A stretch of 32,732 bases of DNA from a virus. How positions within the stretch are numbered: the stretch's first letter is position 1; each line of letters opens with the position of its first letter. Location of the stretch: positions 1 through 32,732 of the IMG/VR virus record IMGVR_UViG_3300028025_003432; one strand, given 5' to 3'. The position numbers and the translations under genes were made by a program. The notes under the pieces are model-generated. The model saw only the letters and a program-made list of their open reading frames with translations. It was not told the origin of the DNA and searched no databases. Of the stretch, positions 4,763-31,300 are shown piece by piece.

Positions 4763-5011
4763 TTAAATCCTAGCTAAAGTGTGTAGAATATCCAAGAAAC
4801 CCCACACGAAACAAAATACTAATATACTTAGGAGAATTGTTGCAAAGAACAATTCCACTCCATTAAAATCCCACCACTCTCTTACTTGCTTGTTGCGTGG
4901 TAGACTCCGTCCCAGTTGCTTGGCTTGCCTTGCTTGAGTCTTTCCAGCATTAGTTCGTAGTACTGCTTTAGAGGGTTCGTAGTCGAATCCCCATCCATTA
5001 GTTCCTGACAT
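4763..5011 (-). CDS. Single-span small membrane protein, start uncertain
   Basis: From ATG 5011 the protein is 82 residues: a basic, polar N-terminal half (GKTQARQAKQLGRSLPRNK) and one strong membrane segment (about 55-73, FFATILLSILVFCFVWGFL). This start overlaps the adenylate cyclase gene by 130 bases in another frame. The cyclase C-terminus is family-typical and surely real. Translation could instead begin at a GTG just after the cyclase stop (in GVELFF), giving little more than the membrane segment. The segment itself and the tight fit to the next gene support a product. Confidence 0.55.
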   Translation of the reverse strand: MSGTNGWGFDYEPSKAVLRTNAGKTQARQAKQLGRSLPRNKQVREWWDFNGVELFFATILLSILVFCFVWGFLDILHTLARI

Positions 5012-6909
5012 AGTTTTATCGCTTTCTTCCAATCGCCAGAATAATATGCGTCAAGATACTGCTGATGTTTTTCACCAACTTTTGCGATTGCGTAAATGTG
5101 AAGTCCAATTGTTTTACCTTTTACTGCGATACAATCAAGCTGTGCCACATCATAAACATGTTTCACTCGCTCTGCTGTTTCTGGACCAATTACCAACAGA
5201 ACTCCATAACCTTTTGTTTGTCCCTCAAGACGTGCTGCAGTTGATACTGAATCACCGAGTACGTCATAACCATAGCGATCGTTTGCACCGATGTTACCAA
5301 TCAGAGTTGGACCAGTATTTACACCAGCACCCATACCTACAGGTGGACGACCTTCTGCTTGTAATTCTTTATTAAACTCCTCAATTGCATCAATCATTTC
5401 AAGAGCAGTCTTAACTGCAGTAATTGCGTGTTCATTATCATCAACAGGTGCGTTGTGAACGTGTAGTGAAGCATCACCAATAAACTTGATAATACAACCA
5501 CCATTCTTCAACACTGGCTTAGACAATGCGTCCATATAACGATTCATAACTGCAGTCAAACCTTGCACGTCAGCACCGAATGATTCACCAAGTGTAGTGA
5601 AACCACGAAGGTCTGTCATAACGATAGAGAGATCTTTCTTCTCTCCTTTTAGTCGCTCTGCTGCACCTTCAGGATCTTCTGCCAATTGATTAACGATGAT
5701 TGGAGATACGTATCCACCAAACTGTTTTTTAATTTGCTGTTTTGCACGCAACTCGACAAGGAACTTGACAATGTATCCATGGAAGCTGGCAATGAATATG
5801 GTAAGAATTGGGAATACAGCATCGAGTAAATACCCAGATCCAGTAAACAGTTGGAAGCCACCATAATAGGCGATTGCTCCCAAAGCGAGCGCAAAGATGT
5901 ATCCATGAGTGTACCTTGTTAGAAAGATTGATAGGATTACTGCCACTATCATAAATGCTAACTCAGCAATCAATGCCCAATCTGGACGACTGATGTTAGT
6001 GCCACTTGTTACTGTATCTAATACTGCAGCTTGTAAGTAATGCGGATAAACCGATCCCGTTGCAGTAGCCACTGGATTGTTGAGTCCTTTTGCAGTAAGT
6101 CCAACGATGACGATGGCTCCACCAAAGTCGGCTGGTAGTTTTGCTGCAGAATATTCTTTTGGTTTTGCTGACCAATCAACCCAAATTCTACCCAACTCGT
6201 CTGTGTCGATTTTTCCGAACTGTGGAATTCGAACTGCTTCGATTCCTGATTCATTGACCTTGACTTGGAAACTAGGATCTCCTGCAGCGACACGCAATGT
6301 CTCCAAACTGATGCTTGGGTACAATTGTCCTTTAGAATTGACGACCATTGGAATTCTTCTGGTGACGCCATCGATTTCTGGGAGGGTGTTAACAACACCA
6401 ATACCAGCAGCACTATTATTAAACTTTTTAATATTAGGTTGAATATTTCCATAGATGACTCCTGTACTCGCTGGATCGCCACCTACTACAGAAACACCTG
6501 GACGAAACGGTAAATGCTTATCTGAAAAATAACTATCACTTGTTGCTACCTGTGGAAGAACAACAGGTGCTTGTTTCATTAATGATGCTAGTTGATCATC
6601 TTGACCAAAACGATCAGACTCAGGCATATAGACGTTAAAGACAACCAGCCCAGCACCATGAGAATAGAGATTAGTAATGAGTTCGGCATACTGTCCACGA
6701 GGGAACGGGAACTGTCCTTTTTGTTGAATATAGGCATCGTCAATATTTACAACTGCAATCTGCTGAGATGTAGTTGCACCTTTACTTGTTATGAGTTGAT
6801 CGAAATAACGAAGTCTGACAGACTCTACAAATGCAGGATCTGCTACTCGAATAGCTAGTAGGAGGACTAGTGTTACTAGAGCCATCCATGGAGATAATAG
6901 TTTTTTCAT
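4882..6909 (-). CDS. CHASE2-domain class III adenylate cyclase
   Basis: A 675-residue membrane enzyme predicted to make cAMP from ATP. It has an N-terminal anchor (7-22), an extracytoplasmic CHASE2 sensor (about 25-305, with VVNIDDAYIQQKGQFPFPR), three membrane helices (about 315-381), then a class III cyclase domain (about 425-610). The metal ligands are Asp433 in MTDLRGFT and Asp479 in KFIGDAS. The adenine-selecting pair is Lys475 and Asp549 (YDVLGDSV), and Arg560 is present. The transition-state Asn position is Ser556 (VSTAAR), so activity may be reduced or the catalytic detail altered. The tail (YYELMLERLKQG...WDGVYHATSK) is typical of bacterial CHASE2 cyclases. I chose ATG 6909 because it forms an ATGA with the PA14-curlin stop and precedes the signal anchor (MKKLLSPWMALVTLVLLL). 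The cyclase is the enzymatic end of the curli-like operon. Confidence 0.93.
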   Translation of the reverse strand: MKKLLSPWMALVTLVLLLAIRVADPAFVESVRLRYFDQLITSKGATTSQQIAVVNIDDAYIQQKGQFPFPRGQYAELITNLYSHGAGLVVFNVYMPESDRFGQDDQLASLMKQAPVVLPQVATSDSYFSDKHLPFRPGVSVVGGDPASTGVIYGNIQPNIKKFNNSAAGIGVVNTLPEIDGVTRRIPMVVNSKGQLYPSISLETLRVAAGDPSFQVKVNESGIEAVRIPQFGKIDTDELGRIWVDWSAKPKEYSAAKLPADFGGAIVIVGLTAKGLNNPVATATGSVYPHYLQAAVLDTVTSGTNISRPDWALIAELAFMIVAVILSIFLTRYTHGYIFALALGAIAYYGGFQLFTGSGYLLDAVFPILTIFIASFHGYIVKFLVELRAKQQIKKQFGGYVSPIIVNQLAEDPEGAAERLKGEKKDLSIVMTDLRGFTTLGESFGADVQGLTAVMNRYMDALSKPVLKNGGCIIKFIGDASLHVHNAPVDDNEHAITAVKTALEMIDAIEEFNKELQAEGRPPVGMGAGVNTGPTLIGNIGANDRYGYDVLGDSVSTAARLEGQTKGYGVLLVIGPETAERVKHVYDVAQLDCIAVKGKTIGLHIYAIAKVGEKHQQYLDAYYSGDWKKAIKLCQELMDGDSTTNPLKQYYELMLERLKQGKPSNWDGVYHATSK

Positions 6910-8090
6910 TGTTGTGTCATCGTCACAGAACACCCACCTGCGTTTGCACAAGATTGCTGCAGCAAGTATGTCTGATTAGTATTCCCTTGTTGTAAAACAT
7001 TAACAGTCGAAGAGCCACCACTATTAGTCACTTCAATTCTAGCAGAATGAGCACCAGCATCTTTTTGGTCTAAGGAAACTGTGTGCCCATTTCCTGTGGC
7101 TTTTATATCCGAATATTTAGTTCCTGTTCCAACTTGATTGTTTGTAATATTATTAGTATTACCATTAATTATGATAAAACTGGTTTTCTCTGCATCGCCT
7201 GTCTGCGATACATTTACTGTATTTGTATTACCTGTCACATCAACAGAACTATAATGTCCTGGAGTTGACGCTGTGCCTGAATTAGATTGATACACATTGG
7301 TTATATTAGAACTGCCATTTATATTAATGTTAGAGTAGTTCTTCCAACCCAACTGGTCTAGCCCAATTGAATTACTATCACCCTGTATTGTTATGTCAGT
7401 TAAATGATATGTTCCTGACTGTAAAACATCTACTGTATTATATGAACCAACTTGATTCACATAAATTTGATTGGCAATAGTTTGTCTATTTCTTGCAGCA
7501 GTTTTGTTTGTTTGTTGTAGTGTTGTTATACCAACTTGAATCGCTGGTTGCCAGTATGTTGAAACAGTTGCTAAGGATGTCGTCGGAATTATTTCCCACG
7601 TATTGTTTTGAACCCACTGTAGATTTACCATGGCACCACCACCATTTTCATAGTATATTAGTTCTATTGGTACTGTTCCTGCAGGTAATGATACACTACC
7701 AGATCTAAAAGCACCACCACTTTCAATCCAGCTATCAACTACCTGAGTATTATTAACTTTGATTCGTATACCATCATCAGCCTGTCCACCAAAACTATAT
7801 GTGCCAGCTGTTGGTATGTTAATAAATCCATAAAATCTTACAATAACACCCTCTGCTCTTCCAGAATTTAAAACTGCTCCACCACCCCATCCAAAGTTTA
7901 CAGTACTGACTATTCCTGAACTTAACTTTGTACGATTGTTAATAGTTCCATCTGCAGCTTGAGTGTAGGTAGGCATCGCTCCACCTGCAGCATACGTGTC
8001 ATACAACAATCCATTAGTTTGAGCATCTATATCCTGACTGTTAGCAGAAAAGTAGATAAACGCAGAAAGTAAAATTAAAAACTTTTTCAT
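6906..8090 (-). CDS. Secreted PA14-domain protein with C-terminal curlin repeats
   Basis: A 394-residue protein with a Sec signal peptide (MKKFLILLSAFIYFSANS). It has a PA14-like carbohydrate-binding beta-barrel at about 25-170, including VRFYGFINIPTAGTYSFGG, the ADDGIRIKVNN core and LPAGTVPIELIYYENGGGA. About 200 residues of curlin-type repeats follow, with N-x-[IV]-x-[IV]-x-Q units such as YNTVDVLQSG, TNTVNVSQTG and GGSSTVNVLQQGN. A Cys pair (C-x5-C) lies close to the C-terminus. It could be an adhesive or glycan-binding amyloid subunit or nucleator. Both ends are ATGA overlaps, with FecR upstream and the cyclase downstream. PA14 was assigned by pattern; the curlin repeats are clear. Confidence 0.85.
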   Translation of the reverse strand: MKKFLILLSAFIYFSANSQDIDAQTNGLLYDTYAAGGAMPTYTQAADGTINNRTKLSSGIVSTVNFGWGGGAVLNSGRAEGVIVRFYGFINIPTAGTYSFGGQADDGIRIKVNNTQVVDSWIESGGAFRSGSVSLPAGTVPIELIYYENGGGAMVNLQWVQNNTWEIIPTTSLATVSTYWQPAIQVGITTLQQTNKTAARNRQTIANQIYVNQVGSYNTVDVLQSGTYHLTDITIQGDSNSIGLDQLGWKNYSNININGSSNITNVYQSNSGTASTPGHYSSVDVTGNTNTVNVSQTGDAEKTSFIIINGNTNNITNNQVGTGTKYSDIKATGNGHTVSLDQKDAGAHSARIEVTNSGGSSTVNVLQQGNTNQTYLLQQSCANAGGCSVTMTQQ

Positions 8091-9169
8091 TTTTGTATCA
8101 ACGTAATTGTAGTGCTACCACCCTTGTTAATATTTTGTATGTATGTTGCACCTTGTTGAGTATACACAATTGTTTTATCCTCTGTAACCGATGCTCTTAC
8201 GCAAGCAGTGCTAGATGCAGAGAATTTACATACGTTTACCATTGTTTGATCATCATTAAAGAAATAGTATGCACCAACAGATGCTTTAAAATCTGGCAAC
8301 AGACGACTCTCTGCTGACAGAGAATCTTTACTCAAATTGTCTGCATCAGCATCCAACATGTTAAACAGAAAGTTAATGTCAAGTAAATTAATATCTAACT
8401 CTTTAAAGTTCTCTAACTTATTTTCGTCCAAGTCTTTAAATGCCAATAAGTCTACATTTAAAAAGTTCTTATCTAAAAGACTTTTAGATTCACGCATCTC
8501 TATTTCTTTGATTTCTTTTGGAGGAGATACAATAAGAAGATTGTCGATATTTGCTTGGTCTATACTTACAATAACTGGAGCAGTTGGTGCTGTAGTTAAA
8601 GAAGCCACCACCGTAGTTTGATATGGTTCATTCATGAATACTTCTCCTGCATCGTTTTTAACTGAAATGGCTCCAGTAACGCAGGACTTTTTCTTTTCAT
8701 CGCAAGACGGTAACAGCATAATTAAACTGCGACCCAATTCATCAACAGTCATAGAAAAGTCAGTACCCCTAACTGCCACTGTAGCAGTAGGGGTATTAAC
8801 GGCAACTTGTTGTGGATTAGTTTTTGCGATTTGACCACTTGCGTAACGAGCAGTGCCCATTACAACTTTCATAGCGAGTTTTCCTGAACCTTTCTTCGGA
8901 TCATACACGAAGTCATCTACCACTAGCTTACTCTGCTCTGTGATATTGACTGTCGTGTTATCCTCGAAAGTTAGTTTGGCTTTCGCCTTTGCAGTAACAA
9001 TTGTATCATTCATTTCTACTCCAGAGCCAACTTTGGATGGAATAGAATTTTTATTACGTACTATTTCTGTTGGACCAGTCTGTTCTGTGACTTTGCCAAC
9101 TGCAGCAAAATTAGTTTGACTGAGTGATAGAAATAGTATTGCTGTTACCAGACGAATTAATATTAACAT
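8087..9169 (-). CDS. Secreted FecR-domain protein of the curli-like operon
   Basis: A 360-residue protein with a Sec signal peptide (residues 1-23, cleaved near NFAA). The FecR domain spans about 25-190. Its signature is VAVNTPTATVAVRGTDFSM, preceded by FEDNTTVNITEQSKLVVDDF. It has no membrane span and no sigma-regulator N-domain, so it is unlikely to be a classical FecR anti-sigma protein; it resembles the stand-alone periplasmic FecR proteins that sit next to CHASE2 cyclases in bacteria (from memory). The middle (about 205-290) is a Leu/Asp/Lys-rich helical segment. The last 20 residues (YIQNINKGGSTTITLIQ) look like one curlin strand pair. Cys pairs C-x6-C and C-x8-C suggest disulfides. The start overlaps the curlin gene by 59 bases. 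Confidence 0.88.
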   Translation of the reverse strand: MLILIRLVTAILFLSLSQTNFAAVGKVTEQTGPTEIVRNKNSIPSKVGSGVEMNDTIVTAKAKAKLTFEDNTTVNITEQSKLVVDDFVYDPKKGSGKLAMKVVMGTARYASGQIAKTNPQQVAVNTPTATVAVRGTDFSMTVDELGRSLIMLLPSCDEKKKSCVTGAISVKNDAGEVFMNEPYQTTVVASLTTAPTAPVIVSIDQANIDNLLIVSPPKEIKEIEMRESKSLLDKNFLNVDLLAFKDLDENKLENFKELDINLLDINFLFNMLDADADNLSKDSLSAESRLLPDFKASVGAYYFFNDDQTMVNVCKFSASSTACVRASVTEDKTIVYTQQGATYIQNINKGGSTTITLIQK

Positions 9170-9707
9170 TTTGTACAGTCATTCCAGATTGTGTCACACC
9201 AACTGTATTTGTATTACCAGTAATAGTAGCATTCATGGTAGTAGTTCCAGTTGCAGTACTTGTATGAGTCACGTTATTAGTATCTCCAGTCACAGTAATG
9301 TTACTAGTGTGGTTAGCACCAGAACCTAAGTTTTGAGTAATAGTATTATCGTCACCAGTAATAGTTTGCGTAATAGTAGATCCTGAGCATCCTGCAGAAA
9401 CAGTAGTTCCACAATCGATAGTTTGTATGTTACCACTACCTGTTGTAAGAATTGTAGTGTCAGCGGATGAACCATTCACGACCATTGCTAAGATGTTATT
9501 GTCTCCAATTTGGTCAATTGCCACAGTGTTAGAACCACTGCCAATATAAATCGAATCGGTGTTATTACCGATAGTGTTACCCACACCTTGTTGTGTGATA
9601 GTAACAGTAGAACTAGAACCAACTTGTTCTATATAAATGTCATTAGCATAACCAAAAGAACTAACACCAAGCAAGCTAATCATAGCGACTGCTTTTAGTC
9701 CTTTCAT
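9111..9707 (-). CDS. Curlin-repeat (CsgA/CsgB-like) amyloid subunit
   Basis: A 198-residue secreted protein with a signal peptide (MKGLKAVAMISLLGVSSFGYA). The rest consists of curlin-like repeats with Asn/Gln ladder residues: IYIEQVGSSSTVTITQQGVGN, GSNTVAIDQIGDNN, ITQTITGDDNTITQNLG, ITGNTNTVGVTQSG and a terminal NSNTISITQSN. Repeats are more irregular and Thr-richer than E. coli CsgA, and a C-x7-C pair interrupts them. It is the likely main or minor fibre subunit for the CsgG/CsgF pore encoded upstream. Its ribosome site (AAGGAC) and TAATATG junction with csgG indicate tight coupling. Confidence 0.9.
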   Translation of the reverse strand: MKGLKAVAMISLLGVSSFGYANDIYIEQVGSSSTVTITQQGVGNTIGNNTDSIYIGSGSNTVAIDQIGDNNILAMVVNGSSADTTILTTGSGNIQTIDCGTTVSAGCSGSTITQTITGDDNTITQNLGSGANHTSNITVTGDTNNVTHTSTATGTTTMNATITGNTNTVGVTQSGMTVQNVNINSSGNSNTISITQSN

Positions 9708-9708
9708 A

Positions 9709-10500
9709 TTATTGTCCTTTTTGTTTAGATTTAAATTTCCATAATCCTTTTCGCTCGCCCTCTATAATCATCTCATAGACAGCCTGTTCAATAGCTACAC
9801 GAACAGCGTATGTTGTCGGTTCATTGATACCTTGCCCAGTTTCTAATTCTAGGGCTTTTGTTCCAGCATCAATAAATCTAAACACACCGATATTAGAAAC
9901 ACTACTGTAAATAGTTTTACTTACCGCAGTGCTCAACAAAACCTCTCCGCTACTCACACTTACTAAGCGTAGAGATATAACAACTTCATCGACACGATAT
10001 TGCTCGCTTCCACCAATTCCTAAAAATCTTGCACCATTACCACCTGAACGCACATTAGAGTCATAACCGATAATACCACCATCAATCATGATACCTGCAA
10101 CAGTCATTGGTTTTAATGGTGTCGCACCCTTACCTTCATAAACTTCTCGTTGATTACGAATCAATTGTCTTTCTTTTATTAAGTTGTCAAGTCCAACTCG
10201 TTCAACAACTTTAAACCATCCAGTGCTATCTTTTAGTGCTTTAATTAAAAATACTTCAGAACCTTGTGTCACTGCTTTACTGAACAAAGCCATTTTATCA
10301 CTTGGTTTGTTTTGTCCAGTTTTATCTTGAAATCCATAAACTGCCACTGTCATTGGTGGACCATCTAGTTCTGGTAATTTTTCTATTAGACTTTTCTTTG
10401 GTTCAAGTTTAACTGGTTCTTGATCACCAAATGCCTGCATATTGACAGAGGCACATCCAGTTAGTGCTAGTGCAATCAGAGATATTAGTATCGTTTTCAT
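9709..10500 (-). CDS. csgG: CsgG-like curli secretion channel lipoprotein
   Basis: A 263-residue outer-membrane lipoprotein. The lipobox LALTGC places the lipidated Cys at 16. Family signatures run the length of the protein: MTVAVYGFQDKTGQNKPS; ALKDSTGWFKVVERVGLDNL; IKERQLIRNQRE; GIMIDGGIIGYDSNVRSGG; ARFLGIGGSEQYRVDEV; SLRLVSVSSGEVL; GVFRFIDAG; and a final RKGLWKFK. E. coli CsgG forms a nonameric pore that exports curli subunits. Around the constriction loop the Phe is kept (ALFSKAV), but the Tyr51 and Asn55 equivalents seem replaced and the loop is one residue longer. The C-terminal tail is about 20 residues shorter. I chose ATG 10500 (TAATATG after the csgF stop) because it gives a clean lipoprotein signal. 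Confidence 0.95.
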   Translation of the reverse strand: MKTILISLIALALTGCASVNMQAFGDQEPVKLEPKKSLIEKLPELDGPPMTVAVYGFQDKTGQNKPSDKMALFSKAVTQGSEVFLIKALKDSTGWFKVVERVGLDNLIKERQLIRNQREVYEGKGATPLKPMTVAGIMIDGGIIGYDSNVRSGGNGARFLGIGGSEQYRVDEVVISLRLVSVSSGEVLLSTAVSKTIYSSVSNIGVFRFIDAGTKALELETGQGINEPTTYAVRVAIEQAVYEMIIEGERKGLWKFKSKQKGQ

Positions 10501-10501
10501 A

Positions 10502-10969
10502 TTAGAAACTAAATGTGGCGATTGGCACAACGACCTGTGTAACAGTCCCTTGTGTATCTCTAATTGTTAATTGAACTTGTGTGGCAGAACCATTGTCGTA
10601 TAGTTTTTCCCAAGTGATAGAAGATCCTTGGAAATCCACAGTGCCAGTGTTTGAGCTACCATCTGAAAACATCTGGTCAGCTAACTGTTTTGAAAGTTGC
10701 GCATAGATTCTTGACTCTAGATTGTTCAAGAATTTGGCAATATTTGTGTTGTTCTTAGCTCTTGCTGCTGCATCTTCTGCAGCTTTGGCTTCGTCTTTAA
10801 GTTTTTGTTTTCTTGATGATTCTAACTGCTCGATAGTTAGAACGTGTGCTGAGTATCCCTGTCCACTGAAAGCAGGGGAGTTGAATTGGTGTACGAGTTC
10901 TCCTGCATTACTGTTTAAACTGACTATCAGCAGACCCAGGAGGGATTTTCTTAAGTGATGCCTTGACAT
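10502..10969 (-). CDS. csgF: CsgF-like curli assembly factor
   Basis: A 155-residue secreted protein. The signal peptide ends near SNA, and the mature N-terminus (GELVHQFNSPAFSGQGYS) matches the CsgF segment that plugs into the CsgG pore (E. coli F-R-N-P-N-F-G-G-N). An Ala/Lys-rich helix (about 48-75) and a C-terminal beta part with WEKLYDNG and VQLTIRDTQGTVTQVVVP agree with the family. In E. coli CsgF couples export to fibre nucleation at the cell surface. The start lies 62 bases inside the upstream gene, but the signal peptide requires it. It directly precedes csgG. Confidence 0.9.
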   Translation of the reverse strand: MSRHHLRKSLLGLLIVSLNSNAGELVHQFNSPAFSGQGYSAHVLTIEQLESSRKQKLKDEAKAAEDAAARAKNNTNIAKFLNNLESRIYAQLSKQLADQMFSDGSSNTGTVDFQGSSITWEKLYDNGSATQVQLTIRDTQGTVTQVVVPIATFSF

Positions 10970-11243
10970 CTTCTATTCCGTTCGTTTTGTTATCGTCGGT
11001 GGGCTGTTGCCCATCTTTTTCTCTTAATGACAAGATAACATTCACTTTCTGATTCAAACGGATAAGATCGTTATCCAACATCCTAATGCGATCGATTAGA
11101 TCAATCAGAACTTTACTAGCTTCACCTGTTACTGGCTTAATTTCTGTGGTTACCCACTGCCAGACATAATAAACAAAGTAACCCAAACCACCTGCTGCAA
11201 TTATCGGGAAACCATACTTATTGACTAACTCAACGACATCCAT
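10908..11243 (-). CDS. Small membrane protein, paralogue of the 11412-11690 product
   Basis: A 111-residue protein starting at ATG 11243, preceded by GAGAGTGAAA. One membrane segment (VNKYGFPIIAAGGLGYFVYYVW, about 6-27) is followed by an amphipathic coiled region (DRIRMLDNDLIRLNQKVNVIL) and a polar tail. It is clearly related to the protein encoded at 11412-11690: both share GFPI-AA---GYFV and D-R-----DxxRxxxKV---L. The pattern is compatible with small holin-like or virion-assembly membrane proteins of marine phages, but the function is unknown. Its 3' end overlaps csgF by 62 bases. Confidence 0.7.
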   Translation of the reverse strand: MDVVELVNKYGFPIIAAGGLGYFVYYVWQWVTTEIKPVTGEASKVLIDLIDRIRMLDNDLIRLNQKVNVILSLREKDGQQPTDDNKTNGIEDVKASLKKIPPGSADSQFKQ

Positions 11244-11412
11244 TTTCACTCTCGCTCTTTTGTATCTTTTGAAAGACGATTCTTCCATCAAATGTCACAT
11301 TAGCAACATAACGATCGCCATCTTTAAGATGTAGTTTATCAGCTGTTAATTCTTTGTCCATCATAATAGTACCATTTTCTAGCACATCAAAGACATAATC
11401 TACAAATAACAT
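11230..11412 (-). CDS. Small soluble phage protein, 60 aa
   Basis: A 60-residue beta-rich protein (MLFVDYVFDVLENGTIMMD, then KLHLKDGDRYVANVTFDGRI). The ATG at 11412 forms TGATG with the previous stop; a TTG one codon earlier is less likely. The KDGDRY-V segment suggests an SH3/OB-like barrel, but I recognise no family. It sits between two paralogous membrane protein genes. Confidence 0.65.
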   Translation of the reverse strand: MLFVDYVFDVLENGTIMMDKELTADKLHLKDGDRYVANVTFDGRIVFQKIQKSESENGCR

Positions 11413-11690
11413 CAATCTCTCCTTGCGTCACTTTGCTCTGCTCGAGCAATCCTGTCTAAATCTGGGGGTATACCCAGTGCGTGAGATACCTTAGTATCAA
11501 TTCGAATAACATCGTGGTTCATTGCTGCAACTCGTTTATCGAGAGCCATAATGATTCCCTTGATAGAGTTTACAGAACCTGTTACTCCAGCAAGGATGAA
11601 TTTAAGTGTAAGGAATACAAAGTAACCTGCAGCCATTGCTGCAGCGATTGGGAATCCGAGTTCCGCTACGATTTTTAAAAAGTCTACCAT
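11412..11690 (-). CDS. Small membrane protein with amphipathic tail
   Basis: A 92-residue protein with one long hydrophobic stretch (about 8-35, ELGFPIAAAMAAGYFVFLTLKF). Then comes an amphipathic helix (IIMALDKRVAAMNHDVIRID) and a charged tail. It is a paralogue of the 10908-11243 product. Such pairs are found in marine T4-like phages; I cannot give a role. It is the first gene after a 53-base gap that holds a late-promoter-like CCTAAATA. Confidence 0.75.
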   Translation of the reverse strand: MVDFLKIVAELGFPIAAAMAAGYFVFLTLKFILAGVTGSVNSIKGIIMALDKRVAAMNHDVIRIDTKVSHALGIPPDLDRIARAEQSDARRD

Positions 11691-13383: not shown

Positions 13384-13529
13384 TCTTCTTCATCAAGATC
13401 TTCCTCTTCGTAGATGTCAGCAGAACAAACTGGGCAATATACCAAATCGGCTGTTGAATGGTCATCTCCTTTGAGAACGATCTTTCCTCGTGCTCCACAT
13501 GATTCACATTCAAAGTATTTAGTTGTCAT
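13380..13529 (-). CDS. Small zinc-ribbon protein, 49 aa
   Basis: A 49-residue protein with two Cys pairs, C-E-S-C at 8-11 and C-P-V-C at 32-35, a classic zinc ribbon, and a strongly acidic tail (EEEDLDEEE). It overlaps the desaturase gene upstream by 11 bases and the GIY-YIG gene downstream by ATGA. Small zinc ribbons like this are common between metabolic genes of T4-like phages. Binding to nucleic acid or RNA polymerase is possible but not shown. Confidence 0.8.
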   Translation of the reverse strand: MTTKYFECESCGARGKIVLKGDDHSTADLVYCPVCSADIYEEEDLDEEE

Positions 13530-14229
13530 TTTTTACCTTTGCTAATTCTAATTTTTCTAATACTTTAAACCACATCCATCCAATATCAAACTCAAACCAA
13601 CGTCTACTTAATTTAGGGTTTGCTGGTTCAGCGTGATGATTGTTGTGTAGTTCTTCACCGCCAATAATAATTCCAAATATTGATATGTTTTTAGAACGAT
13701 CCTTAGTGTTTGTGTTACGATAACCCCACCAATGACCAATACCATTAACAATACCTGCTGCCCAAAAAGGGATCCAAATCATTTGAATACCCCAAAGAAG
13801 CAGACCGATCCAGCCAAACACAATTACATTGATGGCTAACATAATCATGATACCTGTTCTACTATGTTTAGAGTAAACATTATTTTCTAGCCAATCATCT
13901 GGAGTTCCAACTCCATATTGATCAACCATTGCTTTATTTTTGCTGGCTTCGTTATACAATAATGCACCGCCAAAGACAACTCTCCAAATACCATAAACAT
14001 GAGGAGAGTGGGGATCTCCTTCTTTCTCACACATTTGATGATGTTTACGATGTATAGCAACCCACTGTTTAGTCACCATTCCAGTAGTGAGCCACAACCA
14101 AAAACGCATGAAGTGTGCAACTGCTGGATGAAACACCAATCCTCTATGTGTCTGTCCTCTATGAAGATAGAGAGTGACACACACGATTGTGATGTGCGTC
14201 ATTATTAAAACGTAGATAAGTTCAATCAT
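13519..14229 (-). CDS. Membrane fatty acid desaturase (acyl-CoA delta-9 type)
   Basis: A 236-residue integral membrane di-iron enzyme. The three histidine boxes are complete: HRGQTH (23-28), HRKHH (60-64) and HNNHH (195-199). Extra ligand-like His occur in GDPHSPH (74-77) and GIGHWWG. Four hydrophobic segments surround the boxes. The family introduces a double bond into membrane fatty acyl chains. In a phage it could tune host membrane fluidity during infection or lysis. The length is shorter than eukaryotic enzymes and normal for bacterial and phage forms. It overlaps the upstream gene by 8 bases. Confidence 0.93.
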   Translation of the reverse strand: MIELIYVLIMTHITIVCVTLYLHRGQTHRGLVFHPAVAHFMRFWLWLTTGMVTKQWVAIHRKHHQMCEKEGDPHSPHVYGIWRVVFGGALLYNEASKNKAMVDQYGVGTPDDWLENNVYSKHSRTGIMIMLAINVIVFGWIGLLLWGIQMIWIPFWAAGIVNGIGHWWGYRNTNTKDRSKNISIFGIIIGGEELHNNHHAEPANPKLSRRWFEFDIGWMWFKVLEKLELAKVKNDN

Positions 14230-14860
14230 CTTTTCTTTCGTACATTATTGTGTTAGTGTCACCAAGAGACCACTTGGGATCTGTTTCAACTGACCACTTT
14301 TTAGTTGCTACTTTAAAGTCAGGCATCTTTAATTCTTTAGGATTGCTACTTGGTTCTAAAATAATGAGACGATTATTAGGCTGAGCAGCAAACTGCCCAT
14401 TATCACACTGAATAAAATTATAAGACTTATGGTCTTCGATATCTTCAGAAAAGCCTGTATCAAGAGTGTTAAAATCAGGGTGGGCACTATCAACTGTAAA
14501 AAGATATACTCCATACATCCACTCTCCGTTTTTAAGTTTAAACTTACAACGCATTGATTGAAGTTGTGCCTTCTTAATCACAGTAATATCATAGGATAGA
14601 CAATCCCATAACTGAAGGTAATCTAGTGGTAGTGGCTCACCTTCAATTGGTTTCCAACAATATGCATGGAGTGGTAGTTTATCATACAAAGCACCATAAT
14701 TATTTAAGTATGACTCAATACGGAATGCTTGTCCACGTAAAGACTTAATACTTATCCACCAACATGGCTCGAGTTCTCCATGACCTTTTTCAAAATCATA
14801 GAGAAACTCTTTGCGAACAAAACATTTAACAGGTGGAAGGTTCGCAACAATATGTGCCAT
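14222..14860 (-). CDS. Phage hypothetical protein, 212 aa
   Basis: A 212-residue soluble protein starting at ATG 14860 (TAATG with the aldolase stop). Features are MAHIVANLPPVKCFVRKEFLYDF at the start, WWISIKSLRGQAFRIESYLNN, and a Trp/Tyr-rich middle. It has no signal or membrane segment. I recall similar proteins beside desaturase genes in marine T4-like phages but know of no function. The constant pairing with metabolic genes suggests an enzyme or regulator of the same pathway, which is inference. Confidence 0.72.
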   Translation of the reverse strand: MAHIVANLPPVKCFVRKEFLYDFEKGHGELEPCWWISIKSLRGQAFRIESYLNNYGALYDKLPLHAYCWKPIEGEPLPLDYLQLWDCLSYDITVIKKAQLQSMRCKFKLKNGEWMYGVYLFTVDSAHPDFNTLDTGFSEDIEDHKSYNFIQCDNGQFAAQPNNRLIILEPSSNPKELKMPDFKVATKKWSVETDPKWSLGDTNTIMYERKDD

Positions 14861-15525
14861 TAATATTTTCCTGATGAAAGAACGATATGACAAATATGTT
14901 CTAGTCGTTCAATATGTTCAAATGCTCGCCAAGGACTAGTATCAATAGCGACTACACCATGTCCTTTAATACCTACGATGTCAAAGCCAGTATTACCTTG
15001 TTCATCAAGATTTAGTTTTTCAAAACATTGGTCAGCAAGTTCTTGACTAATTGGAGGAACATCACCAACATTAGGTGCTACGCTAGTATAACGACTTAGT
15101 TCTGGAAAATCATTGGCAAGACTACTCAACTCAATTCCACGATGCATTGCAGCAACACAGTATGTTGGGTGAAAGTGCATAACTACTCTCACTTCATTAC
15201 TATGCTGTCCCATCATCTTTTGTAAACCAAAGTGTAATGGAATCTCGCCACTTGGTTTTAGATTAGCACTAATGTCAGTATACTGTCCTTCTTTCCAACC
15301 CCATCGTTCTGCCAACAAACCTGTGCCAAGTTCGTTCCATGATAGTGGTGGTTTGATTATGATCTTTTTAAATTGATCAGGTTGTAGTGTTTGTTTACGT
15401 ACACCACTTGGAGTAATATAAAAATGGTCACGATCGTGGTGACGAATAGAGACATTACCATCACGACTGGTAATCCAGTTGCGACGATATGCCTCTACCA
15501 TTGTATCACATATTGTTTCTAACAT
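14860..15525 (-). CDS. Class II aldolase/adducin-family protein
   Basis: A 221-residue metal-dependent aldolase-type fold. The zinc site is visible: HFH at 117-119, a third His in GHG (189), and the catalytic Glu94 in PSGEIPLH. The N-terminal RDGNVSIRHHD and ITPSG segments match the family's phosphate-binding region. Relatives include fuculose-1-phosphate aldolase, ribulose-5-phosphate 4-epimerase and methylthioribulose-1-phosphate dehydratase (MtnB); the substrate cannot be read off here. It starts within the nrdB stop (TAATG). Phage copies could redirect sugar phosphates during infection. Confidence 0.88.
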   Translation of the reverse strand: MLETICDTMVEAYRRNWITSRDGNVSIRHHDRDHFYITPSGVRKQTLQPDQFKKIIIKPPLSWNELGTGLLAERWGWKEGQYTDISANLKPSGEIPLHFGLQKMMGQHSNEVRVVMHFHPTYCVAAMHRGIELSSLANDFPELSRYTSVAPNVGDVPPISQELADQCFEKLNLDEQGNTGFDIVGIKGHGVVAIDTSPWRAFEHIERLEHICHIVLSSGKY

Positions 15526-24604: not shown

Positions 24605-25083
24605 TATGAACCTACCGCAGTTTCGTTATCGTATGGACCAAATACAGCAGTCTCAACCTTTGGAGTCCAGCCTTCTTTACGCAGACGAATGACACAATGT
24701 CCTGGACCATCAAATGTTAAACGAATGTCTTTGTTTGCATAAACTCTATCAGAAAAATCATCATAATCATAATACCCAGCATTAAGTAGATAATAATGAC
24801 TATGTAAAACTGGACCAGTTGGATTAATAATTCTTGTGATGTCTAGTTGTTTGTCTTTCTTAAGACCCCACCAGATACCTGTAATAAAAACTCTTGAACC
24901 AGTATACTGAACTAGACCACCACCAGTTTCATCTGGAACAGATGTTGGTGCTACGTATACTTGAGTTGATTTAGTCATATTATTTTCTAGACTTAAATCA
25001 ATGTCACCACCAGCAGAGTCTGTGACATAACACTTGAAAACAATTTCAGTTTCAGTGTGTTTGATTATGTGCTTTAGTGCCAT
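24604..25083 (-). CDS. Beta-rich phage structural protein, 159 aa
   Basis: A 159-residue protein starting at ATG 25083 (TAATG within the previous stop; a GTG at 25095 is less likely). It is mostly beta: HTETEIVFKCYVTDSAGGD, ITRIINPTGPVLHSHYYLLN, RLTFDGPGHCVIRLRKEGW. The jelly-roll-like pattern fits a small virion protein. I recall similar ORFs in marine T4-like phages; function unknown. Confidence 0.75.
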   Translation of the reverse strand: MALKHIIKHTETEIVFKCYVTDSAGGDIDLSLENNMTKSTQVYVAPTSVPDETGGGLVQYTGSRVFITGIWWGLKKDKQLDITRIINPTGPVLHSHYYLLNAGYYDYDDFSDRVYANKDIRLTFDGPGHCVIRLRKEGWTPKVETAVFGPYDNETAVGS

Positions 25084-26048
25084 TAGCAGTTCCACTTCCT
25101 AAGAGCGAGAGCTTTACGAGTTGGCTCTCCGTTTGGTTTCTTCATTGGACCTTCCATGCCACCCATGCGTGCACAGAAAGACTTTCTACGTTTTGCAGCT
25201 TTACTGTCTGGACTTAATTTTGATGGTGGAGTTGTGACTGGTGCTTTTAGATTAGCACCCTTAGCATTGTATGCGTCACGACCCTTTTGAGTCAGACCAC
25301 CAGTAGAAGACTTATGTCCCTTTGCATCAACTGCATACTCTAGTAATTCTTCATCGCTAAACTGCTCGAACTTTTCCCAAACATATTCAGGATCTAGATT
25401 ATGTTGTAGTGCAAGATCTTCAATAACTTCTTCGATTAAGTCAAACTGTTGTTCAACTTCTTCATTCTTTGGTACGCAGTCAGGTACCATGCGGTCACCT
25501 TTCTTCTTCATACCAACTTGCTTGTGAGTATCCCAGCATGCTTCGTATAACTCTTCATCCATCTCTTCACCAAACATCTCACGATACTTCTTAGTGTGCT
25601 TGGATTCTTTAGTCTTTGCTTCTGCATCTCCAGGTGCTGGTGCATATGCAGATGGATCGCTATCGCTTTTCTTATCCATCTTATCAAAGTGTGCTGCTCT
25701 GGCTTTTGCAGTTGAAGCAGAAAGACCAGCAACATACTTCTTTGGAAGACCAGACTCTTTATCTTTTGGAACTTCTGGTAGATTATTTTCTAAGATTTCT
25801 TCTTCACGTAGGTCTTTATCAGCACCATGATAAGTGCCTTTACCTTTAGTGATGTAAGAGTTCACACGAGCCATACCCCATTGTTGTGGAGTAGTTCCTG
25901 GACGATGACCAGAGTTCCAAGCAGCAACACCACGACGATATACTTTACGTAGTGTGCCAATTGAGATACCAGATTTAGATGCTTTTGCTGCAAGACCAGC
26001 GTCAGCTGTCTCGCAGATTGTGATTGAAAATTGTTTTAACGATAGCAT
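25083..26048 (-). CDS. Phage protein with DUF5824-like N-terminal domain
   Basis: A 321-residue basic protein. The N-terminal KSGISIGTLRKVYRRGVAAW followed by GTTPQQWGMARVNSYITKG is a widespread T4-like phage domain (I believe DUF5824), also found fused to virion proteins. A charged linker, a Cys-containing middle (YEACWDTHKQVGMKKKGDRM) and a C-terminal KRRKSFCARMGGM...ALRKWNC segment follow. The C-terminal Cys residues resemble a metal site. The module may be processed or packaged with the head, but no direct evidence is visible. Confidence 0.75.
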   Translation of the reverse strand: MLSLKQFSITICETADAGLAAKASKSGISIGTLRKVYRRGVAAWNSGHRPGTTPQQWGMARVNSYITKGKGTYHGADKDLREEEILENNLPEVPKDKESGLPKKYVAGLSASTAKARAAHFDKMDKKSDSDPSAYAPAPGDAEAKTKESKHTKKYREMFGEEMDEELYEACWDTHKQVGMKKKGDRMVPDCVPKNEEVEQQFDLIEEVIEDLALQHNLDPEYVWEKFEQFSDEELLEYAVDAKGHKSSTGGLTQKGRDAYNAKGANLKAPVTTPPSKLSPDSKAAKRRKSFCARMGGMEGPMKKPNGEPTRKALALRKWNC

Positions 26049-26057
26049 TTTATTTCC

Positions 26058-28832
26058 TTAAAATACGCTAGGCTGTGAACCCTGAGTGAATTTACTGTGA
26101 GACATACGTGCCTTCTCAACTTTACGAACACGTGGAACAAGACGAGTGGCGATTCGACCAATTACTGCCTTACGTTGTTCTAATGCTCTTTCGATTCTTT
26201 CTTTCTCACCAACAGAAAGTTTACTCACATCACGACCACGTAGCAGACGTTGCTTCATTAGTTTAATAGCAAGACGACGTGCACGTTTGTTAATTGTTGC
26301 AGTGTTTGAGTAACGCTTCAGTGCAATCTTAGTTGCACGTTCACGCTTTGCAGCAGTGCGACGAATACGGAATTTAGCTTTCATTCTTTCGATACGAGAA
26401 AGAACTTCCATGATTGCTTCTTCATCAAGAGCATCTTCTTCGTCTGACTTTGGAATTTCTTCGCCAGTTTCGTCATCCACTAAACCAAGTTCTTCTTCAT
26501 CGTAGTCGTCCATGATGTCATCATCAGATAACTGACCAATCATTGCTTCGATTTCTTTATCATCAACATCGTCTTCTTCTGATGTTTCTAAAGCAGTAAT
26601 TGGAGTGGCAACTTCAATCGTTTGGTCATAGGTTTCATCAACAGTATTTGTTGTGTCTACTACCCACTGCCCATTGATAAACTTTCTTCTTAATTTTGCA
26701 CGCTCTGCCAATTCTTCTTCTTCGAAGAATGGATCAAATGGTTTCTTTGAAAGTGTAGATGGTGATTCTTGTTTTAATGATTTCTCTAAACGATCGATGG
26801 CACCAGACATATTCTCTTTACCTTGTGCTGCGTCTTCTTTACGTTTACGCTCGATCTCATCGTGTTTCTTTTCACGTTCTACTGCAGCTGCACGGAATTT
26901 TTCTAGAGCAGATTCTTTTAATGAATACGCTTTATCATGATGTTGTTCTGCTTTGTCAGCAGCTTTAGATGCTGCATCACTTTGTCCAATGTCTGAATGA
27001 TATCTGTGCATCGCATCAAAGTGATCAGCCATGTGGCTGTGATGGGCTTCTGTTCCAACTTTATGTTTCATCGCAAGAGCTTTGTGTTTCTCTGCTTCAT
27101 CATAATATTTGTCTGCTTGATTACGAGATTCTGCCAACTCAACACGAACACCATGCTTAGACTTCATGGCAGATTTAAATGCATCAGCTTTATGACTTGG
27201 AACTTTAACGTATGTTGCTTTGTCTGTGGTATCAGATACTTTAGCATCATGTGCTGCGAATGTTGGCTTGTGGTCACCAGAAACTTTATCACGATTATCA
27301 ATACGGAATTCTACATGAGATTCTTCTAATGATTCGTTAGTTTTAGTCGGATTACCAGCAACAAATTTACGACGTTGCTTAGCTGCTTTTAATGCCAGTG
27401 CTAACTTTGGATCAGCACGTAACATCCATCCAGGTTTACCAGCACCTTTGCCAGTATACTCAGATTCTTTTAAAGCATCTTTTTCTCTTGTTTGTTTGTC
27501 TGCCAAAGATTCTTTTTCTTTAGCATGTTTAGCCATTAGATTTGTTTTAGCAACTTCATTTGACTTTGGATCAGGAGTGACATTCTCTGCAACACCTTGT
27601 AATTTTGATATGAAAGATTTAGCGATATCTTTTTCTTTACCAGTATGTTCTGGGTCTGTTGCGATATGCTGAGCAGTTAGTTCATGACCACTTTCTTTAC
27701 CGTATGAAGTCATACCTTTCTTCATAATCTTTTTAGCAATTTCAATACCAGTCTGTTCACCAAGATGATATTTAACTTTACGACGACGTAGATTATCTTG
27801 ACCACCAGCTGATACTAAAGTATGACCAACTTCAGATTGATCAACGTCTGTGACTTTAATTTGGTTCTCATAGTCATGGTCAGACTCATTATCTTTTTTC
27901 TTGTCTGCCTTGGAATGTTCTTCTTGTTCTTGAATCTTCTGCGCCTTAGTGTAATTGTAGAAAGTAATCATACCTTTCTTCACTGTTTTTTGTGGAAACT
28001 TACCAACATCGCTGGTCGGCTCAGAGGTTTTGGTATCAATCTTGTCTGTGCCGTTTGGCTGGATTGCACCTTCTTCTAGTTTTGATTCGTTCATTTCTTT
28101 TTCTTCTGTAGGTTTAACATCTTGAATCCATTTGGAAATCAATTTGCCAGTTGATTCTTTTAACAACAAATGATTGGAACCACGCTTTACGATTGTAAAT
28201 TTCTCACCATTTGATTCTACGATATCACCCTCGTTAAAAATCTCACCACGGAAATACTTCTCACGTAGTTTATCTTTAACGAAGACTATCTGTTCTTTAA
28301 TAGGATCAAGTCCTAGACCACTGCGCATCTCATTCATTAGACGTTTACCGTCAATGTCACGGATAGTGCTTGGCAATCTCTTTTTAAATTCTTCGTAAAT
28401 ACCTTTGGAAGCAAACTGCTTCATCTTAGTATTATCTGCTTCTGGATCTTTATCCACAGGAATAAGTTCTACATCCTGTAGTTTTCTCATTTCTGTGATC
28501 TGATCAGTTCCAACTACAAGAATAACTTTCTTGTATTTCTTATGTAATTCTGTAATAACTTCTTGTAGCTTTGACTCGTTGAGTGACTTAAATTTAGTCT
28601 TAGGAAACATTAGATTAAGGTAATGTTCCTTTTTGTCCTCTTGAATCAGACTATTTTTAGATGGGGATGTATAGATAACGTGAGCAGAACTCTTCTGTTC
28701 TGCCAGTTTTTTGACTGTCTTTACCAAAAGTTCGTGACCGACAGTCGGAGGATTAAATTCCCCCACTGCGCAGACAATGGTATTGGACGGTAGTTCTCTG
28801 ATTAACTGTTTGTAATCTTTCATTTTATCCAT
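26058..28832 (-). CDS. Large phage protein with cytidylyltransferase-like N-domain
   Basis: A 924-residue protein. The N-terminal ~220 residues form a nucleotidyltransferase-type Rossmann domain: VGEFNPPTVGHELLVKTV with the TxGH-like signature at 30-33, then ILVVGTDQITEMRKL. An SH3-like piece follows (FNEGDIVESNGEKFTIVKRG). The middle is long, charged and His/Lys-rich, with a histidine-dense stretch (HHSHMADHFDAMHRYH). The acidic region DDVDDKEIEAMIGQLSDDD and a very basic C-terminus (KRARRLAIKLMKQRLLRG) end it. The layout suggests an assembly or internal virion protein carrying an enzyme fold. ATG 28832 lacks a clear ribosome site; ATG 28823 (three codons later) is equally plausible. Confidence 0.82.
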   Translation of the reverse strand: MDKMKDYKQLIRELPSNTIVCAVGEFNPPTVGHELLVKTVKKLAEQKSSAHVIYTSPSKNSLIQEDKKEHYLNLMFPKTKFKSLNESKLQEVITELHKKYKKVILVVGTDQITEMRKLQDVELIPVDKDPEADNTKMKQFASKGIYEEFKKRLPSTIRDIDGKRLMNEMRSGLGLDPIKEQIVFVKDKLREKYFRGEIFNEGDIVESNGEKFTIVKRGSNHLLLKESTGKLISKWIQDVKPTEEKEMNESKLEEGAIQPNGTDKIDTKTSEPTSDVGKFPQKTVKKGMITFYNYTKAQKIQEQEEHSKADKKKDNESDHDYENQIKVTDVDQSEVGHTLVSAGGQDNLRRRKVKYHLGEQTGIEIAKKIMKKGMTSYGKESGHELTAQHIATDPEHTGKEKDIAKSFISKLQGVAENVTPDPKSNEVAKTNLMAKHAKEKESLADKQTREKDALKESEYTGKGAGKPGWMLRADPKLALALKAAKQRRKFVAGNPTKTNESLEESHVEFRIDNRDKVSGDHKPTFAAHDAKVSDTTDKATYVKVPSHKADAFKSAMKSKHGVRVELAESRNQADKYYDEAEKHKALAMKHKVGTEAHHSHMADHFDAMHRYHSDIGQSDAASKAADKAEQHHDKAYSLKESALEKFRAAAVEREKKHDEIERKRKEDAAQGKENMSGAIDRLEKSLKQESPSTLSKKPFDPFFEEEELAERAKLRRKFINGQWVVDTTNTVDETYDQTIEVATPITALETSEEDDVDDKEIEAMIGQLSDDDIMDDYDEEELGLVDDETGEEIPKSDEEDALDEEAIMEVLSRIERMKAKFRIRRTAAKRERATKIALKRYSNTATINKRARRLAIKLMKQRLLRGRDVSKLSVGEKERIERALEQRKAVIGRIATRLVPRVRKVEKARMSHSKFTQGSQPSVF

Positions 28833-29108: not shown

Positions 29109-29452
29109 TTTCTTCCTCTCCATGCATCGGTGATAACATCCACTCTAGCTTTGTTAATTTTAACAACAGACTCACAGAACTTCTCATTTTTAGACTCTTG
29201 TGCTTTCTTTAAAGCTGATTCTAGACTCTCGACTGCTGGTGCTTGAGGGTCGTTACGAAGACTTGTATAAACTTTTAATTTCTCTATTTTAGAGAATGCA
29301 TCGCTCCAGTCTTTATTCGTGCAGTTTAATTTATCGACTGCCACCTTTACCTCGACTAGATTATTAAATGCAGCACCATCGTGGGGAATAGGAAAGATTA
29401 CGGCACAGCCAGATAGTATTGCTATTGATAGTGCTACAAGTAATCTTTTCAT
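29105..29452 (-). CDS. Small lipoprotein, 115 aa
   Basis: A 115-residue protein with a lipoprotein signal (MKRLLVALSIAILSGCAVIF, lipobox LSGC, Cys16). The mature part is a helical, charged domain with two Cys (CTNKD and FCESV) that may form a disulfide. Both junctions are ATGA overlaps. Surface lipoproteins of phages can act in superinfection exclusion or as spanin-like parts; nothing here decides. Confidence 0.75.
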   Translation of the reverse strand: MKRLLVALSIAILSGCAVIFPIPHDGAAFNNLVEVKVAVDKLNCTNKDWSDAFSKIEKLKVYTSLRNDPQAPAVESLESALKKAQESKNEKFCESVVKINKARVDVITDAWRGRK

Positions 29453-31236
29453 TTCATCGCTTTCCTTAGATCGTTATACAATTCATCTTTGTGTTCTGGT
29501 TTCATTTGTGAAGACAATGCAGCGTGGAAGTCTTTCTTTTTACCAGTAGATGCCAACTCTCTTAATTTAGTTCCAGAGATACCAGCTACACCTTTAGCAT
29601 TTTCGTCACGTTGACCAGATGAATGCATGGTGATTGATTTAAAGTTAAAGTGCCCATGAGCAGACTCTTTACCATTATACTTTTTAAGCATTTCAACCAT
29701 GCTCTCACGATCTGAACCACCAACAAAATGTAGATGTTTAACACCTTTGTTATATAATTCAACAGCGTGATGAAGGATAGTTGGCTTATTCTTGTCTGCT
29801 ACTTCAATGTTAGTTTCAGGAAACGCATTCTTGGCATGCTTTAATTTCTGTTCTGGACTTAGTGGATTCTTACCATCTTTGGTTGCATGAGAGTGAGAAA
29901 GAATCAATGTATGTTCACCGCCAACTTCTTTGGCAGTTTTCTTTAATTGATTAACAACTTGCTCATGTCCAGCAGTTGGAGGATTCATACGACCAAATGC
30001 GATGGTATGATGTTTCTCATCTGGCTCTTTGGCTGGACCACGTGACTTTAATAGATTCTGACGAGCAAACTCTGCGCGATTGACTAACTTTGTTGGCTCT
30101 GTCACACCTCTGTGAGTATGATTGTAAACAAAACCTTCTGGCTTAGAAGCAACACCACCGATGGCATGCTCATAAGATCCTTCGTTGGATTCTAGAGTCT
30201 TAACCAATTCATTCTTGGCATTGGCTAAATGACCATGCATCTTTAGAAGATTCTCGTAGTGTTCAGCATTCTTTTGAATGTGTTTAACATGTCCACTCAA
30301 CTCAGCAAGTTTGGCATTCTGAGACTTCTCAGTTTTTAGTTTACTAACAATCTTTTCGTATTTACCAGCAATGTGCTTTTGTAAACCTTCAGCCGATGGG
30401 GTAGTGCCATCACGAACTGTTTGATTGATGTATGTGCTTAAATGTCCAGCTTCACCAGAATGGTCTGGATGAATGGCTTTATACATTTTCTCGCCATGCT
30501 TCTCGTGGATTGTTTTTGCTTTGGATAGTTCTGAAAGAACTTTATCTTGAGATTCTTGAGGATACTTTGCACCACTGGCATCATAAGAAGCAGTGTGGTG
30601 GAAAACATGGTCATGATTACCAAACTCGTCATCACTGACATTGCCAGTGGCACGCATGGCACTTAGAGTGTTACCTTCGTATTTGGTATGAGTAACTACA
30701 CCTAATTTAGCTTTGTGAATTGCTGCAGCTTTATCGCCATGTGCAGTATAAGTGATAGTGTTTGGAGTAAAAGAAGCAGAGCCACCTTTACCTTTCTTCA
30801 CATCAGGTTTAGTGAACATCACGTCACCCTGATAAACACCCTTCTTTGGAGCAATTTTAGGTAGATGATCAAGACCAGCTTTTAGTTTTTCTACAAGACC
30901 TGGAGCATGTCCATGATTCTTTTCTACATCTTCATGTGTGTAGTTTAATTTTGGATTCTTATTGAAAGCAGACTTGGAAGCAACAAAGAACTTACCAGTC
31001 TCTGGATGATGACCATAAACAATAGATGGTGAACCATCGTATTTCATTGTCAACTTATTGGATTGCTTACCTTGTTTGGTATGGAAGTGTGCACCATGAA
31101 GTGCATCGTATGCATGATGGAAACCTTCTGAGCCATGGAACAGGGGTCTATCTTCTGCATGAGTAATGTGCTTGAGTTTAGCACCCTCTTCCTCTGCACC
31201 TTCGACTAAAAAATCAGTAAATCCTAACACTTTCAT
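29449..31236 (-). CDS. Fusion of ligase-like and cytidylyltransferase-like domains
   Basis: A 595-residue protein. The first ~390 residues (a phage family I recall as DUF6267) contain what read as covalent-nucleotidyltransferase motifs in the right order: I MKYDGSPS (Lys65), III FFVASK (83-88), IIIa YQGDVMF (135-141), IV PEGFVYN (366-372) and V TKLVNRAEF (382-390). The C-terminal ~185 residues are a cytidylyltransferase domain with FGRMNPPTAGHEQV (415-428) and ISGTKLREL, an ISxTxxR-type motif. A His/Lys-rich helical stretch separates the motifs. I chose ATG 31236 because a consensus -10 ends 6 bases upstream; a TTG at 31275 would lie in the promoter. The ligase reading is my inference. Confidence 0.8.
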   Translation of the reverse strand: MKVLGFTDFLVEGAEEEGAKLKHITHAEDRPLFHGSEGFHHAYDALHGAHFHTKQGKQSNKLTMKYDGSPSIVYGHHPETGKFFVASKSAFNKNPKLNYTHEDVEKNHGHAPGLVEKLKAGLDHLPKIAPKKGVYQGDVMFTKPDVKKGKGGSASFTPNTITYTAHGDKAAAIHKAKLGVVTHTKYEGNTLSAMRATGNVSDDEFGNHDHVFHHTASYDASGAKYPQESQDKVLSELSKAKTIHEKHGEKMYKAIHPDHSGEAGHLSTYINQTVRDGTTPSAEGLQKHIAGKYEKIVSKLKTEKSQNAKLAELSGHVKHIQKNAEHYENLLKMHGHLANAKNELVKTLESNEGSYEHAIGGVASKPEGFVYNHTHRGVTEPTKLVNRAEFARQNLLKSRGPAKEPDEKHHTIAFGRMNPPTAGHEQVVNQLKKTAKEVGGEHTLILSHSHATKDGKNPLSPEQKLKHAKNAFPETNIEVADKNKPTILHHAVELYNKGVKHLHFVGGSDRESMVEMLKKYNGKESAHGHFNFKSITMHSSGQRDENAKGVAGISGTKLRELASTGKKKDFHAALSSQMKPEHKDELYNDLRKAMK

Positions 31237-31242
31237 ACCTTT

Positions 31243-31271
31243 ATTATACCCTAATTTGCAATATTTGTCAA
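31243..31271 (-). promoter_or_regulatory. Consensus sigma70 promoter giving a leaderless mRNA
   Basis: The -35 TTGACA (31266-31271) and -10 TATAAT (31243-31248) are both perfect and 17 bases apart. The -10 ends 6 bases before ATG 31236, so transcription should start at or next to the A of the start codon. The spacer holds TTGCAA ending 7 bases before the -10, as at 3897-3925. Confidence 0.88.
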
Positions 31272-31300
31272 GCAATAACCCTACAGACTTGAGGGGATTA
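31272..31300 (-). repeat. Copy B of the boundary element fused to a stop codon
   Basis: It starts with the TAA stop of the 31298-32518 gene and reads TAATCCCCT, a variable stretch, then TCTGTAGGGTTATT. It differs from the copy at 3975-4003 at three internal positions. Its hairpin is weaker (4 bp, CCCT/AGGG). It directly abuts the -35 of the promoter downstream. Confidence 0.7.

Follow-up and report, generated by a model that had tools for sequence, protein, structure and literature searches.

Catalytic versions of a phage CHASE2 receptor cyclase are exchanged under closely related sensors

Why should a phage carry a membrane-anchored class III cyclase, and what does it mean that this enzyme has a serine at the position of the asparagine which, in canonical class III cyclases, is one member of the transition-state pair? 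The question is raised by a gene in a virus record of 32.7 kb (IMG/VR record IMGVR_UViG_3300028025_003432), analysed here over all its 32,732 nucleotides (the window). The record is probably a fragment. Phage-type genes flank the cyclase operon, and the window encodes ribonucleotide reductase, thymidylate synthase, primase, RNA ligase and cytidyltransferase-like proteins, with a few virion-type PHROG matches. ARAGORN found no tRNA in the window. Two large neighbouring proteins (26058-28832 and 29449-31275) contain the cytidylyltransferase-like domain PF01467, one of them fused to DUF6267, and phrog_3041 also occurs beside them in 25083-26048. Elsewhere, at 13519-15525, genes of fatty-acid desaturase, ferredoxin-type PHROG and class II aldolase type adjoin each other.

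The cyclase and the curli operon that it closes

In order to characterise the gene, we searched the window with Pfam and PHROG profiles and predicted the structure of the cyclase with AlphaFold2. The features of the operon are as follows.

4882..6909, minus strand: CHASE2-class III cyclase, 675 aa, ATG start (PF05226, PF00211, PHROG 35576)
5110..5640, minus strand: cyclase catalytic domain, residues ~424-600 (PF00211)
5935..6873, minus strand: CHASE2 sensor domain, residues ~13-325 (Pfam 27-339 of the longer frame, shifted by 14)
6906..8090, minus strand: PA14-domain protein with curlin repeats, the second curlin (PF07691, 9.7e-11; PF07012, 1.6e-7)
8087..9169, minus strand: FecR-domain protein with a signal-peptide-like N-terminus as read from the sequence (PF04773, 6.4e-11)
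9111..9707, minus strand: curlin-repeat protein (PF07012, 5.7e-6)
9709..10500, minus strand: CsgG outer-membrane pore, ATG at 10500 (PF03783, 1e-53)
10502..10969, minus strand: CsgF (PF10614, 1.4e-16)
10908..11291, minus strand: small protein 5' of CsgF (PHROG 18771)
11412..11690, minus strand: second small PHROG 18771 protein

The open reading frame of the cyclase was confirmed at 4882-6909; a longer frame starts at 6951, with residue numbers 14 higher than those from the ATG start. Both domains scored above their cut-offs, CHASE2 with E 1.4e-40 and Guanylate_cyc with E 5.1e-18, the latter at 65.8 bits against a cut-off of 21.9, which makes the protein a member of the class III profile. PHROG 35576 matched over the full length (E 8e-250). 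The AlphaFold2 model had a mean pLDDT of 86.8, and its residues ~420-612 matched the solved structures of CyaB (3r5g; Z 23.2, 188 residues, rmsd 2.2) and CyaC (1wc3; Z 22.4, 185 residues, rmsd 1.7). Helices were modelled at 7-23, 312-331, 336-358 and 365-397; hydropathy picked 1-29, 308-335 and 358-385, and did not pick the middle model helix. CHASE2 lies between the N-terminal anchor and the membrane helices, as is typical of CHASE2 receptors. The metal-binding residues Asp433 and Asp479 and the purine pair Lys475/Asp549 are present, as in class III enzymes, whereas the canonical Asn-Arg transition-state pair is not (Ser556, Arg560), which leaves fold and profile membership unaffected. The original prediction of a phage-borne membrane cyclase with a complete CHASE2 receptor part was thus borne out by the two Pfam domains, the virus record and the phage-type neighbours, and we read all six of these residues with exactly the identities and numbering that it gave. 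From its sequence, the gene product is probably a sensor enzyme that makes a signalling nucleotide.

While the prediction was right to place the cyclase in a phage, it overlooked that the gene closes an already described phage curli (type VIII secretion, T8SS) operon. The Pfam matches follow the order csgF-csgG-curlin-fecR-curlin-cyclase on a single strand, the order of the phage T8SS module, with the cyclase as the final gene; ATGA overlaps join the FecR stop to the PA14 start and the PA14 stop to the cyclase start. An identical order is found in the cultured phages Melnitz (L082) and HTVC008M (L083), with the cyclase annotated in both. Among our 240 viral relatives (the best 80 per query), 143 had at least 4 kb upstream, and there fecR, csgG and csgF were found on the same strand in 129/143, 123/143 and 115/143, respectively. 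Phage carriage of the cyclase is therefore already known, from these two annotations and from the module of Wittmers 2022 (PMC9599517). Immediately ahead of csgF, the small PHROG 18771 proteins form a tandem pair (10908-11690). The PA14-curlin site (6906-8090) varies greatly among phages (34/45 loci with an ORF), like an exchangeable adhesin slot. A glutamine riboswitch has been reported for Melnitz; an Rfam scan of the window gave no match at the gathering score, and hence no such riboswitch there at that score.

The observed domains, residues, operon, catalytic subfamily and cassette exchange (the last two described below) incline us slightly towards a homodimeric inner-membrane receptor cyclase that would monitor the phage's own curli secretion line and make cAMP from ATP. 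CHASE2 would occupy the periplasmic side of the CsgG/CsgF pore. The state of the envelope, perhaps curlin export through CsgG, would reach CHASE2 with the FecR-domain protein as its likely relay; the signal would then cross the membrane helices and activate the cytoplasmic cyclase, and the cAMP formed from ATP would act via a host receptor.

Ser556 and the Asp/Ser catalytic subfamily

The original prediction took Ser556 for a departure peculiar to this protein. We therefore compared the following positions across viral and cellular relatives.

5242..5244, minus strand: Ser556 codon, Asn in other types (residue reading and census)
5263..5265, minus strand: Asp549 codon, Thr or Ser in other types (residue reading and census)
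5455..5463, minus strand: codons 483-485, with His483 and His485 invariant among Asp/Ser sequences (census)

Three queries gave 589, 135 and 585 confirmed viral relatives, and the best 80 of each were taken, 240 loci in all. At residues 549/556 these were Asp/Ser in 113, Thr/Asn in 45 and Ser/Asn in 80, with 2 unreadable, and mixed states (Asp549 with Asn556, or Ser556 with Thr/Ser549) did not occur among them. The alignment, chosen beforehand as the check on this reading of Ser556, showed serine to be the norm of a subfamily, in 35/80 of the nearest viral relatives and 78/80 of the Melnitz-like relatives (best 80 of each query), tied to Asp549, His483 and His485. Both histidines were found in 120/120 Asp/Ser sequences, Melnitz included, and in none of the other types. 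Asp/Ser also occurred in 6/25 loci from a genome scan; the 29 alphaproteobacterial cyclases found with a Hyphomonas protein comprised 28 Ser/Asn, 1 Thr/Asn and 0 Asp/Ser. The idea of a change peculiar to the window was accordingly not upheld. Ser556 marks a distinct, phage-dominated catalytic subfamily, Asp549/Ser556/His483/His485, and the headline of the original prediction is largely accounted for by an already-known phage gene and a residue that is the norm of its subfamily. A literature search for published exceptions at the asparagine site returned nothing useful.

In a catalytic tree of 131 rows (viral near-copies removed; 14 of the 29 alphaproteobacterial rows admitted), the Asp/Ser type formed a single clade of 55 rows with an SH-aLRT of 100, and the cellular Ser/Asn type fell outside. 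The pattern fits a single origin of Asp/Ser out of Ser or Thr/Asn, on a tree whose root is a midpoint only. Three SAR116 bacteria were nested inside the Asp/Ser clade with a support of 98; as the tree is midpoint-rooted, it carries no direction from phage to SAR116.

An alternative to an active receptor is that loss of the asparagine side chain has left a weak or inactive enzyme, kept for sensing or assembly. The role of this asparagine in canonical enzymes speaks for it, as does the constant company of two more changes next to the metal ligand Asp479. However, the metal ligands, Lys475, Asp549 and Arg560 were kept in 120/120 Asp/Ser sequences, and these form a large, diverse clade, where drift would be expected of a dead site. 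We consider a weak enzyme unlikely, and keep to the active receptor cyclase. What had seemed an odd residue becomes a defined catalytic subfamily, whose activity could be compared with that of its natural counterpart on an almost identical sensor.

Exchange of the catalytic half as a cassette

Although the original prediction was correct on the receptor and its key residues, it overlooked the exchange of the catalytic half as a cassette, which emerged when sensor and catalytic trees were compared. With the 80 nearest viral relatives (the best 80) and the window, catalytic type changed once on the catalytic tree (81 rows) and 12 times on the CHASE2 tree (76 rows). A second build of the CHASE2 tree gave 13 changes and rejected a single origin, with a log-likelihood 971 lower and an AU p of 4e-102. 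Pairs of different type were about 52% identical in the enzyme regardless of the identity of their sensors, whereas pairs of the same type averaged 78-93%; in the extreme pair (L011/L015) the sensors were 89% and the enzymes 50% identical. These results demonstrate that phages repeatedly exchange the Asp/Ser type and the Thr/Asn type as a cassette under closely related CHASE2 sensors.

Assembly chimeras were considered as a source of the swaps and rejected. The control consisted of 37 sensor sequences hand-picked from the tree, mostly members of sets of near-copies, two or three contigs each, with 87-100% full-length identity and from different IMG data sets, as judged by their names. It still rejected one clade (AU p 2e-36), while changes fell from 13 to 4, at least 3 of them on well-supported branches. 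Hence the count of exchanges is uncertain, and their existence is not. A two-rate fit placed the break point at residue 399 in 3/10 pairs and at 302-333 in 7/10, so that the membrane helices either move together with the enzyme in some cases or vary too much for the break to be placed. The cyclase tail beyond residue ~610 was also variable. Recombination between sensor and enzyme is thus visible in phages. Two catalytic versions on closely related CHASE2 sensors look new: the result listings of a literature search contained no published account of sensor/enzyme exchange in phage cyclases.

The signal, its receptor and known systems

The virus may, as the original prediction suggested, set second-messenger levels of its host. 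A cNMP-binding domain was found in 0/37 related phage records and in 4/99 genomes of the SAR11 family (that of G282, Candidatus Pelagibacter), a result that applies to relatives of the window. The cAMP receptor step is therefore without a known partner in SAR11 phages. Together with the swapping of catalytic versions beneath a single sensor, this missing receptor makes up the interesting part of the locus, and the receptor of a cyclic nucleotide in SAR11 and other hosts nearly without cNMP-binding proteins becomes a testable question.

Another cyclic nucleotide, or a receptor type outside Pfam cNMP_binding and orthogonal to the host, would fit this scarcity. Class III cyclases are also rare in the family (3/99 genomes match, 2 above the cut-off, 1 of these on a phage-like contig), yet the SAR11 phage HTVC008M keeps one, of the Ser/Asn type. 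The window cyclase also gave weak matches to Pycsar cyclase profiles. However, Lys/Asp is the pair that selects ATP in class IIIa enzymes, and the Pycsar profiles matched a cellular Hyphomonas CHASE2 cyclase better (3.5e-26 vs 4.1e-16 for the window), so that they do not discriminate. Such a different product or use seems to us rather improbable. It is very improbable that the CsgGF pore is a gated lysis channel, the proposal made by Buchholz et al. for Melnitz (PMC9004378), with the cyclase incidental or a timer: csgA/csgB are there said to be missing, but the Melnitz GenBank record and the window each hold two curlin-repeat genes, and a tie of cAMP to lysis is absent from the present data.

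The receptor cyclase that we favour has cellular relatives. On a 705-kb chromosomal contig of Hyphomonas TMED17 (L086), the order is csgF-csgG-504-aa ORF-fecR-CHASE2 cyclase, flanked by ordinary cellular genes (fumarylacetoacetate hydrolase and TonB-receptor); the 504-aa ORF had no Pfam match, and the cyclase is of the Ser549/Asn556 type, in contrast to Asp/Ser in the window. According to the abstract of Wittmers 2022 (PMC9599517), cyclase and FecR are absent from bacterial T8SS operons, while its section 8 points out a likeness to alphaproteobacterial modules. The Hyphomonas operon qualifies the abstract's statement and bears on the origin of the phage module. Three other candidates (L084, L085, L093) were rejected as cellular: their phage-type modules or fecR lie on short contigs of MAGs, and the tree places them among viral sequences. 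L084 and L085 belong to one Rhodobacteraceae bin, with coverage 64 and 5 and a phage-type curli module on each; they are probably of phage origin and were binned together with a bacterium.

FecR was found near a CHASE2 cyclase in 14/40 alphaproteobacterial regions vs 0/20 control regions, counted within fetched flanks of up to ~6 kb, many ended by a contig edge. The controls came from a plain CsgG family search, which was too broad for finding cellular operons (44/240 alphaproteobacterial genomes matched); profile searches of these 20 regions found neither FecR nor a CHASE2 cyclase. FecR also stood beside the cyclase in three SAR116 loci, and Campylobacterota clusters with FecR near CHASE2 cyclases have been described (PMC9239204). 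Taken together, the alphaproteobacterial, SAR116 and Hyphomonas loci indicate that FecR and a CHASE2 cyclase near a secretion device recur. A dedicated FecR-CHASE2 pair in phages was not supported, since over 43 phage loci FecR distances did not follow those of CHASE2 (rho 0.12, vs 0.60 for CsgG and 0.71 for CsgF).

Two SAR116 loci (L088, L090) share with the window an Asp/Ser/His/His cyclase adjoining FecR and differ from it by a C39 ABC exporter; no csg genes lay in their fetched stretches. By Pfam, L090 carries in a row the C39 ABC exporter, a cNMP_binding-HlyD fusion, the Asp/Ser cyclase and FecR, and phmmer found a relative of the cNMP part in L088. The fusion, of an exporter subunit of HlyD type (L090:3462-5822), might put secretion under the direct control of a cyclic nucleotide. 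A more far-reaching reading, to which we give a low probability, is that the Asp549/Ser556/His483/His485 cyclase, with its rebuilt active site, evolved in phages, was traded as a cassette between envelope sensors, was later captured by SAR116, and makes an orthogonal signal for a receptor of unknown type. If true, the nucleotide signal would be orthogonal to hosts without cAMP signalling.

Among known phage systems, the T8SS module with FecR and adenylate cyclase of marine SAR11 phages (Wittmers 2022, PMC9599517) shares with the window the order csgF, csgG, curlin, FecR, second curlin, cyclase. Unlike in that module, the second curlin of the window has a PA14 domain. The position before csgF to which that work assigns a histidine kinase is occupied in the window by the two small PHROG 18771 proteins. 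The parts of that work consulted treat neither catalytic types nor sensor/enzyme exchange. The Melnitz cyclase is 41% identical over its full length, with the same operon and the same Asp/Ser/His/His, and has diverged in sensor and C-terminal tail. In Sinorhizobium, CyaD1, CyaD2 and CyaK likewise combine CHASE2 with a class III cyclase and receive an envelope signal via an outer-membrane barrel, NsrA being the reported input (PMC13001267); unlike the phage cyclase, they are cellular, and their cAMP is read by Clr.
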